Source of the DNA: a virus
Virus record (IMG/VR): IMGVR_UViG_3300028820_000067
Coordinates: 1 to 22,654 of that record
DNA: 22,654 nt
Reading direction: 5' to 3' (one strand)
Shown: positions 6,178 through 22,603 of the stretch, piece by piece
Position numbering within the stretch: the first letter of the stretch is position 1
Layout of the letters: each line of letters opens with the position of its first letter
Made by a program: the position numbers and the translations under genes
Notes under the pieces: generated by a model
Seen by the model: the letters and a program-made list of their open reading frames with translations, nothing else
The model's database searches: none
What the model was told of the DNA's origin: nothing

Positions 6178-6363
6178 ATGAACATCTTGATTGCCATCGT
6201 CCTCTACACCACGCTAATTGCGCTCATCATTACCACCATTCGCGTGTTTGTTGCTCATATTCGCGGCGAGAAGGTCAGTAGCCCGTTCTTTGAATCACTG
6301 GCTTCCATTTTATTTTTCCTCGCAATTTTCAACTTCTTCTTTGGCAACCACAACCGTGAATAA
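6178..6363 (+). CDS. Possible small membrane protein, antisense to the tail operon
   Basis: From the ATG at 6178 the frame gives 61 residues with two hydrophobic helices: about residues 2-25 (ILIAIVLYTTLIALIITTIRVF) and 42-57 (LASILFFLAIFNFFFG). A short charged loop (HIRGEKVSSPF) separates them. An ATG at 6163 would add five residues. GGAAA lies about 9 nt before 6178 as a weak ribosome site. It is the only plus-strand frame in the tail block and ends precisely where the heptamer array begins. A two-helix protein at such a place could be a moron-type gene such as a superinfection-exclusion factor. No homologue is recognised and it may be spurious. Confidence 0.45.
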   Translation: MNILIAIVLYTTLIALIITTIRVFVAHIRGEKVSSPFFESLASILFFLAIFNFFFGNHNRE

Positions 6364-6396
6364 TGAATAATGAATAGTGAATAATGAATAGTAGGT
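6362..6396 (+). repeat. Heptamer run, direct orientation (AATGAAT / AGTGAAT)
   Basis: Four in-register 7-bp units (AATGAAT, AATGAAT, AGTGAAT, AATGAAT) plus a degenerate one start inside the stop codon of the small membrane ORF. They are followed by GGTTTTT and then the large array in the opposite orientation. Together they form an inverted heptamer structure. Confidence 0.85.
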
Positions 6397-6399
6397 TTT

Positions 6400-6623
6400 T
6401 CATTCCGCAATCCACAATCCGCAATCCACAATCCGCAATCCACAATCCGCAATCCACAATCCGCATTCCCCATTCCTCATTCCTCATTCCACAATCCGCA
6501 ATCCACAATCCACAATCCACAATCCACATTCCCCAATCCGCATTCCACAATCCACAATCCGCATTCCACAATCCACAATCCGCATTCCACAATCCACAAT
6601 CCGCATTCCACAATCCACAATCC
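6400..6623. repeat. 32-unit heptamer array, consensus NCA(A/T)TCC
   Basis: Thirty-two consecutive 7-bp units follow the pattern N-C-A-A/T-T-C-C without a single slip in register. Higher-order structure is visible. Units 2-9 alternate GCAATCC/ACAATCC (14-bp period, four times), and units 21-32 repeat GCATTCC-ACAATCC-ACAATCC (21-bp period, four times). The array begins right after the stop of the chaperone -1 frame extension and ends near the stop of the plus-strand small ORF, so it fills a convergent intergenic space. It gives open frames in several phases only because of its periodicity; I see no coding signal. The large period-7 structure suggests slipped-strand or unequal-crossover expansion. 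Confidence 0.97.
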
Positions 6624-6626
6624 GCA

Positions 6627-6740
6627 TTATTTGCTTATTTGCTTCACCCAAAACAGAAACTCCGACATTGTCATTGCTGACAACTCGGAGTATCTAAACA
6701 GCCCTATGCGTAGCAACGTCAGGACGGCTTCTACAACGCC
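6627..6740 (-). CDS. GpE' extension of the tail chaperone, reached by -1 frameshift
   Basis: In the -1 frame just upstream of the chaperone stop, 37 codons stay open to a TAA at 6629-6627. The translation ends in SAMTMSEFLFWVKQISK. This resembles the C-terminal signature of P2 GpE-type proteins (a Met-x-Leu-x-Glu-Leu-x-x-Trp pattern), which in P2 are made by -1 frameshifting at the end of gene E. The zero-frame codons GAA AAG (6745-6740) contain the A_AAG shifty tetramer. Slippage of the Lys tRNA to AAA would give ...MEK-GVVEAVL.... The tail-chaperone frameshift is known in P2, lambda and Mu; its use here is inferred. Confidence 0.68.
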   Translation of the reverse strand, partial: GVVEAVLTLLRIGLFRYSELSAMTMSEFLFWVKQISK

Positions 6741-8248: not shown

Positions 8249-8470
8249 TTAAAATTTCAAAAGTGAAATATCAACAAAGGATTCAAAGCGCACGCGCTCC
8301 ATCGGCACAGGCGGCATGAAGTTGAAATCAAACCGCAATTTGCCTTGTGCGATTTCTGTTTCAGGATTTTTTGCGCTATCAAACACACACTCGCCATCGA
8401 CCAGCGCGCCGCGTGCAATGAGCGTGCGCATAAACGCATTCACCGTCTCTATCGGCGGTTGCATCGCGCT
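8249..8470 (-). pseudogene. Tail sheath protein, C-terminal remnant only
   Basis: About 73 codons are left: AMQPPIETVNAFMRTLIARGALVDGECVFD, then EIAQGKLRFDFNFMPPVPMERVRFE, ending SLLKF with a TAA at 8251-8249. These are the last two conserved blocks of P2-like contractile sheath proteins, which are normally about 390-480 residues. Upstream of about 8470 the sequence changes to cas9 in a different frame. No start codon belonging to a sheath is present, so some 320 or more residues are missing. Without a sheath this tail block cannot make a working contractile tail unless an intact copy exists elsewhere. Confidence 0.85.
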
Positions 8471-9687
8471 TGTATTTGCTGTAAGTGCTAAGTTTCTGCA
8501 CAAAGCCTTGTGTGGTTGCGGCAATGACGGCGGCATCGAGCGCATGGTGTCGGTGGTCTTTGCGGTTCTTTTCGGCAAGGGCTTCTAACTCATCGAGCGT
8601 GGCTTCCTGTCGATTTTTGCCAAGCGGGTGCAGGAGCGAATTGAGTCCCCAGAGGGTTCGGAGTTTTGCGGTGGCTTGTCCGTTGCTGACAACGATGTTC
8701 GGGCAAATGGTTTCGAGATAGGCTTTGGCTTCGCGAGCAAGATACGCCGTATCGTTGAGCTGGAGCGAGATGAAGTCTTCTGTGTTAATTTCCTCTTGCG
8801 TAAAGCGTCGGAGTTTTGGATTGACTTTCTCTTTCTTCTTTTTCTTTGCAAAGCCAAGGAGTTCAGCAAGGTCACGAAACTTTTTCACACGCTCAATCAT
8901 CTGCTTATATTCCGCTTCGCTGATGACTATTCGCTCTTTCATTTCAAAGGGCGAGAGGTTTTTCTTTTTCTTGCGGTTGAAGTCGGCAAAGCAAAGCGTG
9001 AGGTTGTTAAAGGAATCGTCTTGTGTGCGCGAGTAAGGCAAGATGTGTTCAATGTCAATCTCGTTGTTTCGGAAAAGCATTTCGGCAGAAATTTGCTTGC
9101 CCGTGTAAGGACAAACGCCCTTACATTCGAGTCAGAGTTTATACTTGATGATGTCCTCGCTTGAAGGATTTTGGATACCAAGTTTTCGGATTTCATTAGC
9201 GGCGTGTTCGTTGATTTTGCGGCGCATTTCATTTTCTTTGGTGAGTTCTTCGCGTTTTGCTTTGGGCAATTTCAGTTCGCGTGCAAACTCGATATGGATA
9301 GCGTCGGGCTTTCCGTATTTTTTGATGAGTGCATTCACAAGTCGGCGCAGTTCAAACAAGCCTTGTTGCACAATGGGGTTGCGTAGGTTCGGGACTTCAT
9401 CAAGTTTGTCTAACAGTGCTTTTGGGCGTTTATCGCTGTGGTGATAGCCTGCTTCGACGCACGCATCAGAATAATTAAACCCTTGTTTGAAAAATGGAAT
9501 GAGCTTCTTCATGGCGCGTTGGCTTAGACTTGCGTAGCCTTGTTTGAAGTGGATTTTGGTCAAGGCTTTTGCGCCTGCGTCAGAGAGTCCCCATTTTTCT
9601 TTGCCGTATCGCTCCAACCACTCGTTATCGGTTGCATCGTAGATGATTTTCCATCAGCGTTCTTTTTCGTTATCGATAAACCGGAAG
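8471..9687 (-). pseudogene. cas9: cas9 fragment: RuvC-II, HNH and RuvC-III region, two in-frame TGA stops
   Basis: One continuous minus-strand frame of about 405 codons reads as the second half of a type II-C-like Cas9. Recognisable parts in order are WKIIYDATDNEWLERYGKEKWGLSD; KIHFKQGYASLS; AGYHHSD; RuvC-II (IHIEFARELKLPKAKRE); CKGVCPYTGKQIS; the HNH motif (IDIEHILPYSRTQDDSFNNL...FNRKKKK); and RuvC-III (DHRHHALDAAVIAAT). TGA replaces a sense codon at 9656-9654 (family usually Leu, before Trp) and at 9134-9132 (family Trp). The N-terminal RuvC-I, bridge helix and recognition lobe are missing at the phage end. The C-terminal PAM-interacting domain is missing at the sheath junction. The HNH and visible RuvC catalytic residues remain, but the gene cannot make Cas9. 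Confidence 0.92.
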
Positions 9688-15599: not shown

Positions 15600-15908
15600 A
15601 TGAAGAGTGAAGAGTTAAGGAAATACTTGAAGGGCGACATGTTGCTTGTTTTGGAGGCGACTGGGGTGGCGGCAACGATTGAGTTGATGCGCCGCCTCGG
15701 TGGATTACAGATTTATGTGCAGAAGATGCCGATTGAACTTGCGGTGAAGTTGTTTTATGATGGCAAGAACAAGCGGGCGTTGGCACGCGAGTATAACTGT
15801 GCGGAGGCGACGATTGATAAGTATCTACGGCAACGTGTGACGCCATCGCAGGAGGGGTTATTTGAGAAGGGAGCGGGTGATGATAAAGATTTCGGTTCAA
15901 GGGGTTGA
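15600..15908 (+). CDS. mor: Mor/C-type late transcription activator
   Basis: This 102-residue protein from the ATG at 15600 contains GGLQIYVQKMP, the conserved GGxxxYIPK beta-strand motif of the Mor/C family. The helix-turn-helix LAVKLFYDGKNKRALAREYNCAEATIDKYLRQR follows. Mu Mor (129 residues) dimerises and activates the middle promoter. The frame is open upstream to 15537, but that part is heptamer array and T-run with no start of merit, so ATG 15600 is used. It overlaps the start of the gpG-like gene by 29 bp. It is likely the switch from early to late transcription. Confidence 0.85.
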   Translation: MKSEELRKYLKGDMLLVLEATGVAATIELMRRLGGLQIYVQKMPIELAVKLFYDGKNKRALAREYNCAEATIDKYLRQRVTPSQEGLFEKGAGDDKDFGSRG

Positions 15909-16395
15909 GGGGTTAGAGCGGATTGCGGGTGGGTTGGAAAAGGTATTGGAATCGCCGTTGTTACACAAGCGCGCGGCGACGATTTTGATTGCGGATGCAC
16001 GGCGGAACATTGATGCGGGCGGGTATCCGGAGAAGTTTGTGCCGCTGGCACCCAGCACGAAGCTCAATCGGTTGCGGAAGCAGTTTCGGAGTAAGGGTGG
16101 GATTTATGCGAAAACGAGAGGGAGCAAGGCTTTACGGACGCGCAAGGGTGTAGTTGAAGCGGCGCAATCAATGAAGATTTTGCGCGACACAGGTAACTTG
16201 TATCATCAAATGAATTATGATTCATCGGAAAGGAAAACATTTTATATCGGGGTTGTGGATTATTTGATGTATCATCAATCTGATGAGCCGCGACGGAAGT
16301 TACCACAGCGCAAGGTATTTCAGCCGACACGAAGCACATTTAAGGAGATTGAACAAACGATTTCGGAGTATTTATCTCGTCAATTTCAATCATGA
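15880..16395 (+). CDS. Virion morphogenesis protein (Mu gpG-like / tail completion family)
   Basis: This 171-residue protein (MIKISVQGVEGLERIAGGLEKVL...) shows the phage virion morphogenesis pattern. It has AATILIADARRNIDAGGYPEKFVPLAPSTKL, LRDTGNLYHQMNY, and a C-terminal DYLMYHQSDEPRRKLPQRKVFQ block (H-Q-x-G/D...lPqRpfl). In Mu, gpG is a head-tail or tail completion protein encoded with late head genes; here it sits directly after mor. ATG 15880 is chosen because AAGGGAG lies about 7 nt upstream, although the frame is open to a TTG at 15862. Confidence 0.85.
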   Translation: MIKISVQGVEGLERIAGGLEKVLESPLLHKRAATILIADARRNIDAGGYPEKFVPLAPSTKLNRLRKQFRSKGGIYAKTRGSKALRTRKGVVEAAQSMKILRDTGNLYHQMNYDSSERKTFYIGVVDYLMYHQSDEPRRKLPQRKVFQPTRSTFKEIEQTISEYLSRQFQS

Positions 16396-16406
16396 CGGAG
16401 GGGAAT

Positions 16407-16583
16407 ATGAGTTCGGTCTTAACACCAGAAGAGGAAGCGACCTTAAAGTTAATGAAAGAGGTCGATGAGAAAAATCAAAAGGAATTAGAAGAGCGGTTAG
16501 CGAAGATGACCGAAGAAGAGAAGCAAGCCTTTTTTGAGTATATGCATCGGAGGGCGCAATTTATGACCGAAGAGGCTTCGTAA
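16407..16583 (+). CDS. Small acidic helical protein
   Basis: From ATG 16407, with GGAGGGG about 6 nt upstream, the frame gives 58 residues. An ATG at 16392 would add five. The sequence (LTPEEEATLKLMKEVDEKNQKELEERLAKMTEEEKQAFFEYMHRRA) is almost wholly charged helix and likely coiled coil. The family is unknown. Position next to the gpG-like gene suggests a structural or chaperone role. It is the last plus-strand gene before the convergent portal block, only 6 bp from the portal stop. Confidence 0.6.
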   Translation: MSSVLTPEEEATLKLMKEVDEKNQKELEERLAKMTEEEKQAFFEYMHRRAQFMTEEAS

Positions 16584-16589
16584 TTTTTT

Positions 16590-19232
16590 TTACAGTTCTT
16601 CTAAGTAGAAAAAGAACCCTTCTTTTGTGAGTTGTTTTTCCAAAACCTTGAAGCGCGAAGGTGGGATTAGGACTTCTTTTTCTTTTGGGAAAAAGAACGA
16701 GAGGTTTGTGATGTCTCTACCGGTTTTACTTTTTATTATGAAGCGGAGTTTGTATGGTTTTGGGTTTTTTGTTTTGTTGGTGGAGGTAAAATTAGCCCAG
16801 TATAGAGTTTCACCGGGAATGTAGAAGGTTTGCTGTTCGGGGGTGAGGTCGGTGTCAAGGACGCGGTAGACGATGCCGTTGTTTTTGGTGTAGGGTGGTA
16901 GTTTTTCGAGGATGGTTTGGAGTTGGCGTTTGAAGGCGCGCCAGAATCGGGTTGGTCGACCGTCTTTTTCGATGCGCATACCGCGTAGGTATCGGTTGAG
17001 TTGTTCGTGATATTTTGTTGAGGTATAGGCAGCGACAAGCAAGCCTTCGTCTTCGGAAAGTCCCATGGTGCGTGCATTTCTTTGTAATCCTTTCTGTTTG
17101 TATTCTTTTCTGATGGGTTTCATGTCTTCATCGTTGAGGAGTAGTTCCCAGTCTTTTTGGTTGCGTTCGGTGACGCTTTCGAGGAGCAGTTCGGCGGTTT
17201 CGTTGAGGGTGTGTTTGGCTTCGGGGGAGAGGGGTTGGTTAAGGAGCCAGTTAAGGAAGGATTCGTTTTTATTGCCGATGAACTCGGTGTTTTTGAGTTG
17301 GGTGCGCAGGTCGGGCGTGATGAGCGAGGGTTCGGTGATGCTAAGCGAGTTGGCTTTGGTTTTGGAGATAGGGATAGCGGAGCATCGGCAGTTAAAGCCG
17401 ATGGGTGGGAAGAAGCGGTAGTCGCCTGTTTTGAAAATTTTACCGTGCAGGGCTTTATGGCTTGGGCGGGTGCGGCTGTCGCCGACGGCGGAGTATTGCC
17501 AGTAAGGGAAATCATCTTTGATGGTTTCGAGGGCGGCGGTTTGTCCTGCCGAGTAAGCGAGCATGGCGTTGGTGCGCCAGACGGTTTCGAGGTGGTGGGG
17601 ATTTAGGCGCGAAATTCCTGCTTGGTCAAAGACTTCATTTGCGGTTTTTTGCCACGCACGGAATGATTTACCGTTGGATAAAGCCTGTTTTAAGTGGGCT
17701 TTAAGGGTTTGTAAAATACGGTCGTTTTCGACGGTTGCGATGGCGAAGGATTGGAACTCGATGAATCGGGTGGCATCTTGGTTACCAAGTTTGAGGTTTA
17801 GGTCGAGGCTTTCGAAGGTAGCGAGTGTGCTTTCACTTTTTTTGTTGTTGAGCCAATCTTGGACGGAGCGGATACCGCGTGAGCGGGCGTTCAGCAAGGC
17901 GGTGTGGAGGGCGGTGCCGAAGGCACGGATAAAGTCGTTGTCAAGTGTTAAGTCGAGTTCGGAGTGGGCGGACTCGATTTTTTTTTTAAAGCCGTCGACT
18001 GCGTTCAGCAAGGCATCGAGGTCGTCGGATGTTTCGAAGGATTGGGGTTCGGTTGGGGGTTCGGGTTGGGCGATGAAGTCGTCGGGGTCGTAGCCGCGTT
18101 TGGCGAGGAGTTTTGGGGAGAGTTTGCTTCCGCTGGCTTCGGCGTAGAGTTTATCGATTTCGGCTTGTTCTTTGTCGGTTTCGATGGGTGGAAAGAGGGT
18201 GAAGCGGGGATTGGAGTCGGCGTCGGGTAAAGCGGAAAGGGTTTGAATGATGTCGAGGGCGCAGTTGATGGCGGTTTCGGCGAGGGCGATACCACCGGAA
18301 AGGGCTTCGCCACGGATTTTGTAGCCGATTTTGGAGGCGGCGTAACTGCCAGTGCCGTCGAGTTGCATAGAAAGGTCGCTACCGAGGAAGAGTTTGTTGA
18401 TTTTGGAGATAGCGAGTTTTTCGAACTGCACGAAGGCATCGGAGCTGGATTTACGACCTTTGTTTTCGCGCTGTTCAGCTCGCACGCCCTCGAAGAGCAC
18501 GGCAACGGAGCGGCGGCGCAAGGAGGCAAGGGCAAGTTGCACTTTGACAATATAATCTTGGGAGGCGGATGCCGGCACGTAGGCAATCCAGTGGTCGCGC
18601 CCGTCATCTTCGAGGAACTGTAAGTGCCATTCGAAGTTGCCTTTTAAGCCTTCGGCGAGCCAGTAGATTTCGTCTAAAATGGCGTGTCCGTAGGGGTTTT
18701 TGTAGGTAGGTTCGTGTTGAACGAGGATGAACTGGTTGGGATAGGCTTCATCGACAAGGATACCGTCGGGGTTGGCTTTGGTGATGAGGCGGAGTCGGTT
18801 TTGGTAGTCGAACTTAAACCATTCGCGTGGTTTTTCGATGAGGTCTTCGATGAGAATCATGTTGCCGACGCGGGTTTTCTTGGTTTCGAAGACGGTGTAG
18901 CCAAACTCGCGAGCGGAGGCGGCGTTGGAGCAGATGTCTTTGAGGTTCATATCGCGCAAGATAGAGCGCAGGAGTTTGGCGCGGCGTGAGTGATTGTTGT
19001 CTATGATGTCCCACTCCAAGTGTTTGATGCCGTCGTGAAAAGAACGCGAGGCGGCGGCGACATCGGGCTGTTTGAGCGTTTCTTCAAAAATGGCAATCGT
19101 TTTACCACTATCCCTTAAAATTTTTGAAGGGTGTGGTAGAAGGTCGCTGAGATGGATTAAGCCTTCGACAAGGTCGCGGGTGGCGACTTCGGGTTTATAG
19201 GGTTGTCCGAATTGGTTTAAGATGGTAGCCAT
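16590..19232 (-). CDS. Portal-MuF-ADP-ribosyltransferase fusion protein
   Basis: This is a three-part protein of 880 residues. Residues 1 to about 395 are a Mu gp29-type (DUF935) portal: YGHAILDEIYWLAEGLKGNFEW, then SKINKLFLGSDLSMQLDGTGSYAASKIGYKIRGE. A Pro/Glu linker (388-400) leads to a gp30/SPP1-gp7 MuF head-morphogenesis domain (about 430-630) with ETVWRTNAMLAYSAGQ and DSRTRPSHKALHG...PPIGFNCRCSAI. The C-terminal 160 residues fit an R-S-E ADP-ribosyltransferase: Arg790 in GIVYRVLD, Ser817 in WANFTSTNK, and Glu851-Lys-Glu853 in FPKEKEVLIPPSRFKVL. Mu encodes gp29 and gp30 separately and has no such domain. The ART could be carried in the virion and injected. Confidence 0.85.
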   Translation of the reverse strand: MATILNQFGQPYKPEVATRDLVEGLIHLSDLLPHPSKILRDSGKTIAIFEETLKQPDVAAASRSFHDGIKHLEWDIIDNNHSRRAKLLRSILRDMNLKDICSNAASAREFGYTVFETKKTRVGNMILIEDLIEKPREWFKFDYQNRLRLITKANPDGILVDEAYPNQFILVQHEPTYKNPYGHAILDEIYWLAEGLKGNFEWHLQFLEDDGRDHWIAYVPASASQDYIVKVQLALASLRRRSVAVLFEGVRAEQRENKGRKSSSDAFVQFEKLAISKINKLFLGSDLSMQLDGTGSYAASKIGYKIRGEALSGGIALAETAINCALDIIQTLSALPDADSNPRFTLFPPIETDKEQAEIDKLYAEASGSKLSPKLLAKRGYDPDDFIAQPEPPTEPQSFETSDDLDALLNAVDGFKKKIESAHSELDLTLDNDFIRAFGTALHTALLNARSRGIRSVQDWLNNKKSESTLATFESLDLNLKLGNQDATRFIEFQSFAIATVENDRILQTLKAHLKQALSNGKSFRAWQKTANEVFDQAGISRLNPHHLETVWRTNAMLAYSAGQTAALETIKDDFPYWQYSAVGDSRTRPSHKALHGKIFKTGDYRFFPPIGFNCRCSAIPISKTKANSLSITEPSLITPDLRTQLKNTEFIGNKNESFLNWLLNQPLSPEAKHTLNETAELLLESVTERNQKDWELLLNDEDMKPIRKEYKQKGLQRNARTMGLSEDEGLLVAAYTSTKYHEQLNRYLRGMRIEKDGRPTRFWRAFKRQLQTILEKLPPYTKNNGIVYRVLDTDLTPEQQTFYIPGETLYWANFTSTNKTKNPKPYKLRFIIKSKTGRDITNLSFFFPKEKEVLIPPSRFKVLEKQLTKEGFFFYLEEL

Positions 19233-20748
19233 GGTAGGTTGATAGGTTGAAGGTTGTCGGTTGTCGGTTGTCGGTGTCCCTCACCCCTGCCCTTTCCCAA
19301 TAGGAGAGGGAGTGAGTCCAGAGTGTTTCTAAGGGTGGGGTAGTGGTTTCGGAAACAATGTTGGCGTAGGCGGCAGCCCAGAAGAAGTCGGCATGTGAGG
19401 CATCGTCTTCTTTGTTAGGAGTAGCGACATAGCGGGCTTTGCCGGTGGGCGAAGTTTCTTTGCGGATACTATGGAAATCTTCGCGCAAGAGGTCGTGTGC
19501 GGGCATGGTAAAGCGTTTATCGGTTAAGGCGTTGTAGAGGGCGTAGACCATTTTTTCGTTCAGTGTGAGTGAGCCTTCGATGAACTCGATAGCGAAGGTG
19601 CCGAATCGGGCTTGGAGGTAATCGCCGAGTCCGACACCCATACCGCGATAGTCAATTCCAGTACGTCGATGGTTGGGAAGGGCGATAAGTTGCGAGAGCA
19701 GGTGCGCTTGTGTGGGGGTGTCTATATTTTGAAGCGCAAACACGATGGGCGAGGTTTTGATACCGTTAACGACTTCTACACCCCAAGCGACCGTGTAGTT
19801 GATTTTGCGACCGAAGTCAATGCCGAGATAGAAGGGGTTGTTGCGGCGTTGTAGGGCGTGCAGGTGTGGCGCAAGGAGATGTTCTAATTCTTTGAGGGTT
19901 TTGTTTGTGAAGATGCCGAGAAAGTGATTGTGTTCGGTTTCGGCGGTGGCGAGGAGGTCGTAGGTAAAGAACGCCGAGTTAGCGTCTTCGGGGTTGCACA
20001 TGTAGGCGCGTTCCCACATGACAGGGCGCACGGCACGGCGTTTGGCGTCAAGGTAAGCCTGTTGTTCGGCTTCGGTCGTATGTTTGCCTGTGTAGGTGAG
20101 GATAAAGTCGCCGACTTCGACGCGCCCGGTTTTCGCCAAAATTCTATCCAACAATCCTTCTTGGACGGCTTGTGCAAAGGTGATGGTGTGCAGTGAAAAG
20201 CCGTAGTGTTGGTGTTTAGTGATAAGGTCGTTAAAGAAGGTAGATTTATCGTTGTAATGCGCTGAAAAGATGATGAGCGGAAAGCCCCAAGTGGTGCATG
20301 GTTCGGCGGCTTCGAAGAGGGCTTCTTGCTGATGATGTGAATCGAATTCATCAATGACAATTTTCTCTCTACGACCGATGACGGCACCGGGGTTTGAGGA
20401 GACGACTTCGATTTTCTTTCCGCTTCGGAACTCAAGGCGGTAGAGGGTGTCTTGGTCAAGGGTTTCGCCGAAGTCGGCAAGGAGTTTGAGTTTATTCGCC
20501 CAGAATCGGCAGTCATTGATGTATTGTTTTGCAAGGAGTTTATCTTTGGTGGTGATACAGATGTTCCATTTGCCTGTGGCGGCATCGAGGGTATCTTCGA
20601 GGGCTTGTGTCCAAGAGAAGCCGATTTGTCGGGATTTGCGAGCAAGTTTGCGCATACTCGTATCGGCGAGCCAGCGTTTTTGGTAAGGGAGCAAGAGTTT
20701 AGCGACAAGGGACTTCGGATTATGGAGTGCGGTGTGAAGGTCAGGCAT
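19195..20748 (-). CDS. Terminase large subunit (Mu gp28-like)
   Basis: This is a 517-residue protein. The ATPase half has LLPYQKRWLADTSMRKLARKSRQIGFSW (Walker A-like, residues about 38-46) and EKIVIDEFDSHH (Walker B, Asp133-Glu134). The RNase H-like nuclease half has Asp311 (LGIDFGRK), Asp366 (GIDYRGMGVG) and Asp454 (SHADFFWAAAYA). It cuts and pumps DNA into the prohead. The last 45 residues (from about 473) are not terminase-like. They are translated from a dispersed repeat (THSLSYWERAGVRD) and a GGTTGTC run, and they overlap the portal gene by 38 bp, so the original end was probably near 470. Confidence 0.94.
   Translation of the reverse strand: MPDLHTALHNPKSLVAKLLLPYQKRWLADTSMRKLARKSRQIGFSWTQALEDTLDAATGKWNICITTKDKLLAKQYINDCRFWANKLKLLADFGETLDQDTLYRLEFRSGKKIEVVSSNPGAVIGRREKIVIDEFDSHHQQEALFEAAEPCTTWGFPLIIFSAHYNDKSTFFNDLITKHQHYGFSLHTITFAQAVQEGLLDRILAKTGRVEVGDFILTYTGKHTTEAEQQAYLDAKRRAVRPVMWERAYMCNPEDANSAFFTYDLLATAETEHNHFLGIFTNKTLKELEHLLAPHLHALQRRNNPFYLGIDFGRKINYTVAWGVEVVNGIKTSPIVFALQNIDTPTQAHLLSQLIALPNHRRTGIDYRGMGVGLGDYLQARFGTFAIEFIEGSLTLNEKMVYALYNALTDKRFTMPAHDLLREDFHSIRKETSPTGKARYVATPNKEDDASHADFFWAAAYANIVSETTTPPLETLWTHSLSYWERAGVRDTDNRQPTTFNLSTYHGYHLKPIRTTL
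19278..19316. repeat. REP-like palindromic repeat in terminase 3' end
   Basis: CCCTCACCCCTGCCCTTTCCCAATAGGAGAGGGAGTGAG matches the dispersed palindromic repeat class seen again at 21210 and 22537. Next to it (19241-19275) is a heptamer-like run of GGTTGTC units. The repeat is read through as the terminase C-terminus. Confidence 0.85.
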
Positions 20749-21187
20749 GGTGCACCTCGCTTTCTTCGCTGATGACTCCGAGTTCTTGGAGTAGTTTCAG
20801 TCGTTCTTCTTGGGAGATGGTGTTTTTTTCGGATTTGGGTTTCAGGAAGTCTTCGAACTTACGGGCGCGTTCGGTTTGTGGGGAGAGGCGGGCGGCGGCT
20901 TGAATCATTTTCTCGATGCGTTCATCGAAGCCGTCTTTGCCGTTCAAGTCGGCACTTTGCAGGTGAGCCAACACGCGCTTTAAGAGCAAGGTGGAGACTT
21001 GGTAGTGCAAGTCGCTCAGGGCGGTATTTTGTTTAAGGAACTCGTCTCGCTTTTGATGCCAGTTGCCGTTCTTTGCCCAGTTGCGAAGGGTGCGCTCGCT
21101 GATGGAAAAGAGTTTTGCAATGCTCTCGAAGGAGAGTTGTTCGCGCACATAGAGTCGCATGGCATCGTCGTAGAACTGTCGTTTCAT
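20741..21187 (-). CDS. Terminase small subunit-like (Mu gp27 position, HTH)
   Basis: This is a 148-residue protein. Residues 1-45 form a helix-turn-helix (YDDAMRLYVREQLSFESIAKLFSISERTLRNWAKNGNWHQKRDEF), as in small terminases and DUF1804-type Mu-like proteins. The rest is helical and charged, ending SQEERLKLLQELGVISEE. It lies directly upstream of the large terminase with an 8-bp overlap, the normal S-L order. It presumably recognises the packaging site. The role is inferred mainly from the HTH and position. Confidence 0.8.
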   Translation of the reverse strand: MKRQFYDDAMRLYVREQLSFESIAKLFSISERTLRNWAKNGNWHQKRDEFLKQNTALSDLHYQVSTLLLKRVLAHLQSADLNGKDGFDERIEKMIQAAARLSPQTERARKFEDFLKPKSEKNTISQEERLKLLQELGVISEESEVHHA

Positions 21188-22015: not shown

Positions 22016-22603
22016 ATGCCATACAAGCGACATTTGATTTTCAAGACAGGTGTTCATAACCCTGCCAAGGGCGAGCGGGTATGGACGGCAGAGAAAGTCA
22101 GAGCACTATACGAAAACACGCTTGCCCATAGCCCTGAACAGATTCCCTACACGATAAAACACCCTTCGAATCACCTGCCGATTCTTGGTTTTGCGAAGAA
22201 AAGTGAGTTAAAACTGCATGAGCGAGGCGGTGAAGTCTATCTTTCGGCGGTGCCGTCGAGTTTTGCTGATGCGTTTGTGGAGCTCTTGAAGCGCGCACAG
22301 TTTGATAAGCCGTCGATTGCGATTGGGCAGAAGGGCGAGATTGTTCATATCGGCTTGGTGGATAAGCCGGCGGTCGAAGGTGTTGAAGCGGCGTTTGAAC
22401 GGGCGAGCGCGTCGGACGTCGTTGAAGAAATTGAGTCGTCGTTCTCAATCGAAGAGGCGGAAATGGTATCAGAGTTATCGAGCGTGATGATGCTGTTTAG
22501 TGAATTGATGGAGCGGGTGAAGCGGGCGTTTGAACGCCCTCACCCCAGTGCTCTCCCAAAGGGAGAAGGTATCCCTCACCCCAGTGCTCTCCCAGTGGGC
22601 TAA
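22016..22603 (+). CDS. Capsid maturation protease / scaffold (Mu gpI-like)
   Basis: This is a 195-residue protein. The first 135 residues (WTAEKVRALYENTL, then IPYTIKHPSNHLPILGFAKKSELKLHERGGEVYLSAVP, then FDKPSIAIG) fit the Mu I-protein type of prohead protease, with an H-P-x-N-H-x-P-x-x-G core and the later S(I/V)-type strand. The middle is acidic and helical, scaffold-like. The last 25 residues (RPHPSALPKGEGIPHPSALPVG) come from two copies of the dispersed repeat. Mu I is 361 residues, so this is short. The stop codon lies in a hairpin before the next gene. Confidence 0.75.
   Translation: MPYKRHLIFKTGVHNPAKGERVWTAEKVRALYENTLAHSPEQIPYTIKHPSNHLPILGFAKKSELKLHERGGEVYLSAVPSSFADAFVELLKRAQFDKPSIAIGQKGEIVHIGLVDKPAVEGVEAAFERASASDVVEEIESSFSIEEAEMVSELSSVMMLFSELMERVKRAFERPHPSALPKGEGIPHPSALPVG
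22537..22599. repeat. Two tandem REP-like repeats inside the protease 3' end
   Basis: CCCTCACCCCAGTGCTCTCCCAAAGGGAGAAGG (22537-22569) and CCCTCACCCCAGTGCTCTCCCAGTGGG (22573-22599). The second copy is cut short where the GCTAATCT hairpin begins. Both are translated as the protease C-terminus. Confidence 0.88.

Follow-up and report, generated by a model that had tools for sequence, protein, structure and literature searches.

The portal-MuF-ART locus

The window (the whole stretch analysed here, 22,654 nucleotides of one viral contig) carries an 880-aa ORF at positions 16590-19232 on the minus strand, which a frame check showed to have no internal stop. The ORF, its domains and its neighbours are as follows.

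16590..19232, minus strand: portal-MuF-ART ORF, 880 aa (frame and Pfam)
17988..19232, minus strand: Mu gp29/DUF935-type portal domain, residues 1-415, with the Portal_Mu match at 47-376 (Pfam)
17238..17984, minus strand: MuF region, residues 417-665, with the Pfam core (508-620) at 17373-17711 (Pfam, TIGR01641)
16593..17231, minus strand: predicted ADP-ribosyltransferase (ART) domain, residues 668-880 (Pfam, homologue alignment, predicted fold)
19195..20748, minus strand: terminase large subunit, directly upstream of the triple fusion (Pfam, PHROGs)
20741..21187, minus strand: terminase small subunit/DUF1804-like protein (Pfam, PHROGs)
22016..22603, plus strand: head maturation protease-like protein (phrog_976), divergent from the packaging genes (PHROGs)
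15862..16395, plus strand: neck1/tail completion protein, convergent with the ART end (PHROGs)

The Pfam scan of the 880-aa ORF matched Portal_Mu at residues 47-376 (E 1.1e-40), Phage_Mu_F at residues 508-620 (E 3.3e-21) and ART (PF01129) at residues 683-877 (E 5.7e-11, 42.6 bits versus a curated cut-off of 22.3), and all three matches exceed their curated cut-offs. A TIGR01641 match confirms MuF. PHROGs assign portal and minor head families to the ORF, and because phrog_595 covers MuF through the C-terminus, MuF fusions of such a shape are already present in PHROGs. The initial annotation, made from the letters of the window, had read one 880-residue frame with a portal, a MuF domain and an ART in this order, and the ORF check and Pfam agree with it. 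Its domain borders were roughly right; the ART-homologous stretch is now seen to begin at about residue 668, where the alignment with the nearest homologue (668-880) starts.

Scans of the window place the ORF in the packaging module of a temperate phage, with adjacent terminase genes, a CI-like S24 repressor and a Mu-type transposase. The best explanation is that the virus is a Mu-like temperate phage with relatives in Chlorobiaceae genomes, the lineage of green sulfur bacteria. The head maturation protease-like ORF has homologues of 31-50% identity at the corresponding site in the relatives, and its product is a candidate for processing the portal-MuF-ART protein. The contig shows signs of rearrangement. 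A Cas9 remnant with broken frames (8382-9617, minus strand; HNH_4 E 3e-16, RuvC_III E 9e-27) is flanked by the phage repressor and by what seems to be the truncated C-terminal end of a tail sheath (8249-8440); either the Mu-like phage hit a host cas9 or the contig is chimeric here. At 6329-6680, units of the CACAATCCGCAATCCGCA type form a short, tandem-like array downstream of the region with the tail tape-measure gene.

The C-terminal ART domain

Neither viral contigs nor phage records gave a relative when searched with the peptide of the window ART by itself, and the family was reached by profile searches instead. Profile matches in viral contigs comprised MuF-ART (L116, L122, L131, L132), portal-ART (L130) and portal-ART-ART (L115) proteins; homologue searches found single ORFs of the portal-ART and MuF-ART types, as well as of the portal-MuF-PBECR2 type. 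The nearest ART homologue, 47% identical over residues 668-880, is located in a Chlorobiales prophage remnant (L112), where a 60% identical neck1 gene lies beside the ART tail. Just three parts are left in this remnant (L112 11415-12916), ordered as in the window: neck1, a small ORF of acidic composition and the ART tail.

The initial annotation had pointed to residues in the R-S-ExE order of arginine-type mono-ADP-ribosyltransferases. They lie on the minus strand as follows.

16863-16865, minus strand: R790
16782-16784, minus strand: S817
16680-16682, minus strand: E851
16674-16676, minus strand: E853

Sequence and homologue alignment both place the residues as described. R790, E851 and E853 are invariant in 9/9 aligned homologues from viral contigs, S817 is kept in 8/9, and all four are also kept in homologues from Chlorobiota/Bacteroidota genomes. 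The A3 profile matches Tre1 (6dre) at E 2e-19, followed by Vis, XopAI and Vip2. An AlphaFold2 model of residues 654-880 reached a pLDDT of 87.5 and a pTM of 0.78 with a 10-row alignment, which was made without the Chlorobiales remnant and the other loci from genome searches; it supersedes a single-sequence model with a pLDDT of 46. The best PDB matches of the model in Foldseek are ARTs, mostly arginine-type: XopAI, Tre1 (TM 0.83 by target), Vis, HopU1 and C3, with E from 1e-6 to 1e-10 for XopAI, Tre1, Vis and C3. Its viral structure matches include entries annotated as portal and minor capsid. The earlier reading had been staked on an ART-like fold and on conservation of R790, S817 and E853. 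It stands on both counts, as the model matches arginine ARTs and the residues are kept in nearly all aligned homologues.

On this sequence and model evidence, the C-terminal domain is predicted to be an arginine mono-ADP-ribosyltransferase of the Tre1/Vip2 class. The location of the nearest homologue in a prophage remnant would suit a decayed ART, or one that has lost its activity and serves as a structural MuF tail, but the window ART keeps all catalytic residues and the core fold, and we consider such decay quite improbable.

The portal/MuF joint and its split relatives

The single-ORF state of portal-MuF-ART hinges on ten A's at codons 416-419. This run (T10 on the plus strand) is the sole A/T run of at least nine in the window.

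17978..17987, minus strand: run of ten A's on the coding strand, codons 416-419, at the portal/MuF joint; putative slippage site (sequence, relatives)
17948..17950, minus strand: stop reached by a transcript with nine A's (minus one A), giving a 427-aa portal (computed)
17941..17943, minus strand: stop reached by a transcript with eleven A's (plus one A), giving a 430-aa portal (computed)

The two out-of-frame stops lie 9 and 12 codons after the run. The predicted portal-only products of 427-430 aa end in FKKKSSPPTPNST or FKKKNRVRPLRTRLNT and have the size of the relatives' portals.

Alignments with close relatives run from residue 4 to about residue 680 (in one case to 758) and cover portal and MuF without the ART. 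Their portals, separate ORFs 49-53% identical to the window portal (seven-row alignment A1), end in KKKY, KKKA or similar, with an A-run just before the stop, which is TGA or TAA. Split joints were collected from 23 distinct loci, of which 22 have A9 and the remaining one has A10, and MuF lies in the -1 frame; the rows are related, so these counts are not independent. In 224 kb from 22 split loci, 22 of the 27 A/T runs of at least nine sit at the portal/MuF joint, and the length of the run is maintained across codon phases (AAA AAA AAA G versus xxA AAA AAA AAG). A second A9-G run outside the joint, possibly marking another slippage gene, was seen in two loci (L006:10558, L012:9699).

Within 75 nt past the portal stop, no ATG, GTG or TTG opens MuF in 18 of the 19 tabulated split loci. 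MuF of the split relatives could nevertheless be a separate protein made by coupled re-initiation, from a CTG or ATG start overlapping the portal stop (NTGA), with the A-run incidental. Most split loci do have CTGA at the portal stop, and L005 has ATGA. However, L104 and L060 lack any NTG there, CTG starts are rare, and A9 is constant at the joint and otherwise rare in the split loci. The window, moreover, has neither the stop nor an early start: the relatives' post-run GNNTGA is replaced by TCGAGT, and no start codon for MuF precedes codon 446. We regard re-initiation as improbable.

In the portal tree, the window is nested among split A9 rows (support 95/97), and further A-run lineages lie outside them. 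The split portal/MuF form therefore looks ancestral, by sequence, and the in-frame fusion of the window derived. Behind the conserved portal and MuF, the C-termini vary: the window has ART, L016 has PBECR2, five loci (L003, L008, L020, L044, L047) share a common C-terminal domain without a Pfam assignment, and L002, L004, L005, L006, L012 and others have little sequence after MuF. The shared MuF tail of these five loci, about 150 aa with the motif NPEFxI...G..xxSDLKTP, is likely a toxin domain; the four scanned (L003, L008, L020, L047) gave no Pfam match at E 0.01.

Fused relatives with and without the A-run

Bacteroidota-type phages commonly have portal and MuF in a single protein of about 850 aa, and the two such proteins that were scanned end in PBECR2. 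In a Bacteroidota-type portal clade of 10 rows (support 100/100), 7/10 fused portal-MuF ORFs carry an in-frame A10 or A11 at the joint. Both other frames stop 1-12 codons past the run in all eight ORFs considered (the seven fused ORFs and the window); in the same eight ORFs, 4-31% of positions are followed by double stops this close. In another lineage, L156 (3809-5185) has a split portal gene that ends in A10, with MuF in another frame, and one added A yields an 866-aa fusion.

The A10 of the window is known from one assembly of one 22.7-kb viral contig, and a homopolymer in a single contig invites the view that the tenth A is an assembly error and that the true gene is split as in the relatives. 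We consider this very improbable: the GNNTGA of the relatives is absent and TCGAGT stands in its place, independent fused A10/A11 loci exist, and even with A9 the slip product would equal the same triple fusion.

Fused portal-MuF ORFs without an A-run also exist (L089, L090, L093-L097, L103, L007, L139, L142 and L148). A mixed portal ring is thus not required in all phages, and the switch proposed below is not universal.

A proposed slippage switch

An A/T run of at least nine occurs at a fixed site across divergent relatives, and the alternative frame yields a meaningful short or long product. We consider it probable that a conserved poly-A run in the portal/MuF joint acts as a slippage switch for the number of portal subunits that bear MuF and effector, and that this switch is present in several Chlorobiota and Bacteroidota phage lineages, flipping between default-split (A9) and default-fused (A10/A11) states. 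One gene would give two products, the plain portal of 427-430 aa and the 880-aa portal-MuF-ART protein, through slippage on the A-run, for which RNA polymerase is the likeliest agent and a -1 ribosomal shift a possible one; only part of the portal ring would carry MuF-ART. Relatives with A9 and a stop would make the portal alone by default and the fusion by slipping, and the window would have flipped to the fusion as its default. Bacterial RNA polymerase slips with high efficiency in vivo at nine A/T, and Thermus dnaX makes use of this (PMC5009743). In Chlorobium and Chloroherpeton, poly-A runs likewise mark the split of the dnaX genes (PMC3711429). We found no description of a frameshift at the portal/MuF joint in the open-access literature; PRFect lists MuF-like/VIP2 pairs among its predicted calls, without the portal joint (PMC10885494).

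Ribosomal -1 frameshifting, and not transcriptional slippage, may instead provide the second product; this is a strong rival, possible though doubtful in our view. The heptamer A AAA AAG, known from E. coli dnaX (PMC3711429), lies in the right phase in 19/23 split loci, GGAGG/GAAGG-like stretches occur shortly upstream in many loci, and a -1 shift on A AAA AAG would be expected to leave the same pattern in most loci. Yet the run also keeps nine or ten A's in loci of another phase, which have A AAA AAA as the heptamer (L002, L005, L060, L107), the joints do not all share a downstream stem-loop (z -3.8 to +1.6), and the fused A10/A11 clade has near stops in both other frames, as expected for slippage of either sign. 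The two kinds of slippage may also act together, and either leads to a mixture of portal and portal-MuF(-ART). The probabilities given to these alternatives overlap, as the ribosomal and transcriptional readings share the switch.

A constitutive fusion, in which all twelve portal subunits bear MuF-ART and A10 is a relic of the older split arrangement, appears unlikely. The assembled DNA is in frame, and portal-MuF-PBECR2 proteins without an A-run exist, as in the Porphyromonas phage L103 and in L089. Against this stand the out-of-frame stops at 9 and 12 codons and the maintenance of the A-run in the second fused clade. Furthermore, A10 reaches or exceeds the run length that makes bacterial RNA polymerase slip (PMC5009743), which by itself predicts some portal-only product.

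A proposed virion role for the ART

The initial annotation had put about a dozen ART copies in each virion. Since transcripts with A9 or A11 would encode the portal only and the relatives are split at the same run, this is probably an overestimate, and a portal ring of mixed subunits is more likely, judged from the joint, than a tail on every subunit. MuF gp7 of SPP1 is present at 1-2 copies per capsid in complex with the portal (PMC5576092), which makes a mixed ring attractive.

Delivery by the virion is the most sensible role that we infer for the fused ART. From what is generally known of portal proteins, a C-terminal extension would lie inside the head at the DNA gate. The ART would then reach the following host along with the DNA, possibly once it has been cleaved off, and would modify host proteins early in infection or intoxicate non-lysogens. 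As noted at the outset, no immunity gene is obvious: Pfam scans of 20 window ORFs found no ADP-ribosyl-hydrolase or macro domain. The genes next to the ART end are the convergent neck1 gene and a 63-aa ORF (16392-16583), and this small ORF might be an immunity or partner gene.

To our knowledge, it is not known how a phage sets its MuF copy number. If the switch is real, a homopolymer that gives a portal and a portal-MuF-effector from one gene would explain this number, the toxin dose per virion would be tied to slippage, and gene callers would misread such genes as simple fusions or simple neighbours. Most of the interest is carried by the conserved poly-A joint that can be read in two ways; the enzyme is one more packaged ART of a known class.

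Comparison with known systems

As a virion effector, the window protein compares best with the MuF polymorphic toxins. Its MuF domain precedes a C-terminal toxin domain, its C-terminus varies among relatives that share the N-terminal part, and no adjacent immunity gene was recognised in the window. Immunity genes are not proven for all members of the described MuF toxins, so the comparison is kept and the assignment is not firm. Like Bxa and MuF-VIP2 proteins, the window protein has MuF followed by a variable C-terminal toxin, a class that includes R-S-E ARTs, in the head-packaging region. Set apart by its A10 joint, the window protein also has its MuF joined to a portal in one ORF.

The MuF-ART idea is not new, and describes a known class (PMC5576092; PMC9503650; PMC11699363). 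MuF toxins with ART domains have been published, as has the idea of injection along with phage DNA (PMC5576092), and an ART of a phage may come as a fusion with the portal (PMC9503650). Bacteroides stercoris has a characterised MuF-ART, Bxa (869 aa), for which there are two immunity proteins (PMC11699363). Microbacterium phages have portal-MuF fusions and MuF-VIP2 fusions (PMC7302621). Each pair of parts is thus known, and no published description of the exact portal-MuF-ART triple was found in the open-access literature.

Other fusions share part of this architecture. Portal and ART are joined in one polypeptide in L115 (2054-5815), a single 1254-aa Phage_portal_3-ART-ART protein with two ART copies on one portal, in L130, a lambda-type portal-ART of 767 aa, and in BFVD entries named portal. 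L115 and L130, however, use other portal families, have no MuF between, and no A-run was found in them. The Porphyromonas phage protein DBA55075.1 (852 aa) has the same order of DUF935 portal and MuF, a C-terminal effector-like domain and a similar length, but its effector is an RNase-like PBECR2 instead of an ART and it has no A-run of at least nine. For the enzyme itself, Tre1 (6DRE), an arginine ART of the T6SS, is the best profile match, with the TM of 0.83 by target and the R-S-ExE residues; unlike the window ART, Tre1 has T6SS PAAR delivery and an immunity protein.

For the joint, the closest parallel is dnaX of Thermus thermophilus and Chlorobiota (PMC5009743, PMC3711429). The window site differs in lying among phage head genes and in that its switch is putative. 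In both, 9-10 A's stand at a joint and both split and in-frame versions are found; the short and the long product that dnaX yields from one gene would have their counterpart in the portal and the portal-MuF-ART protein.
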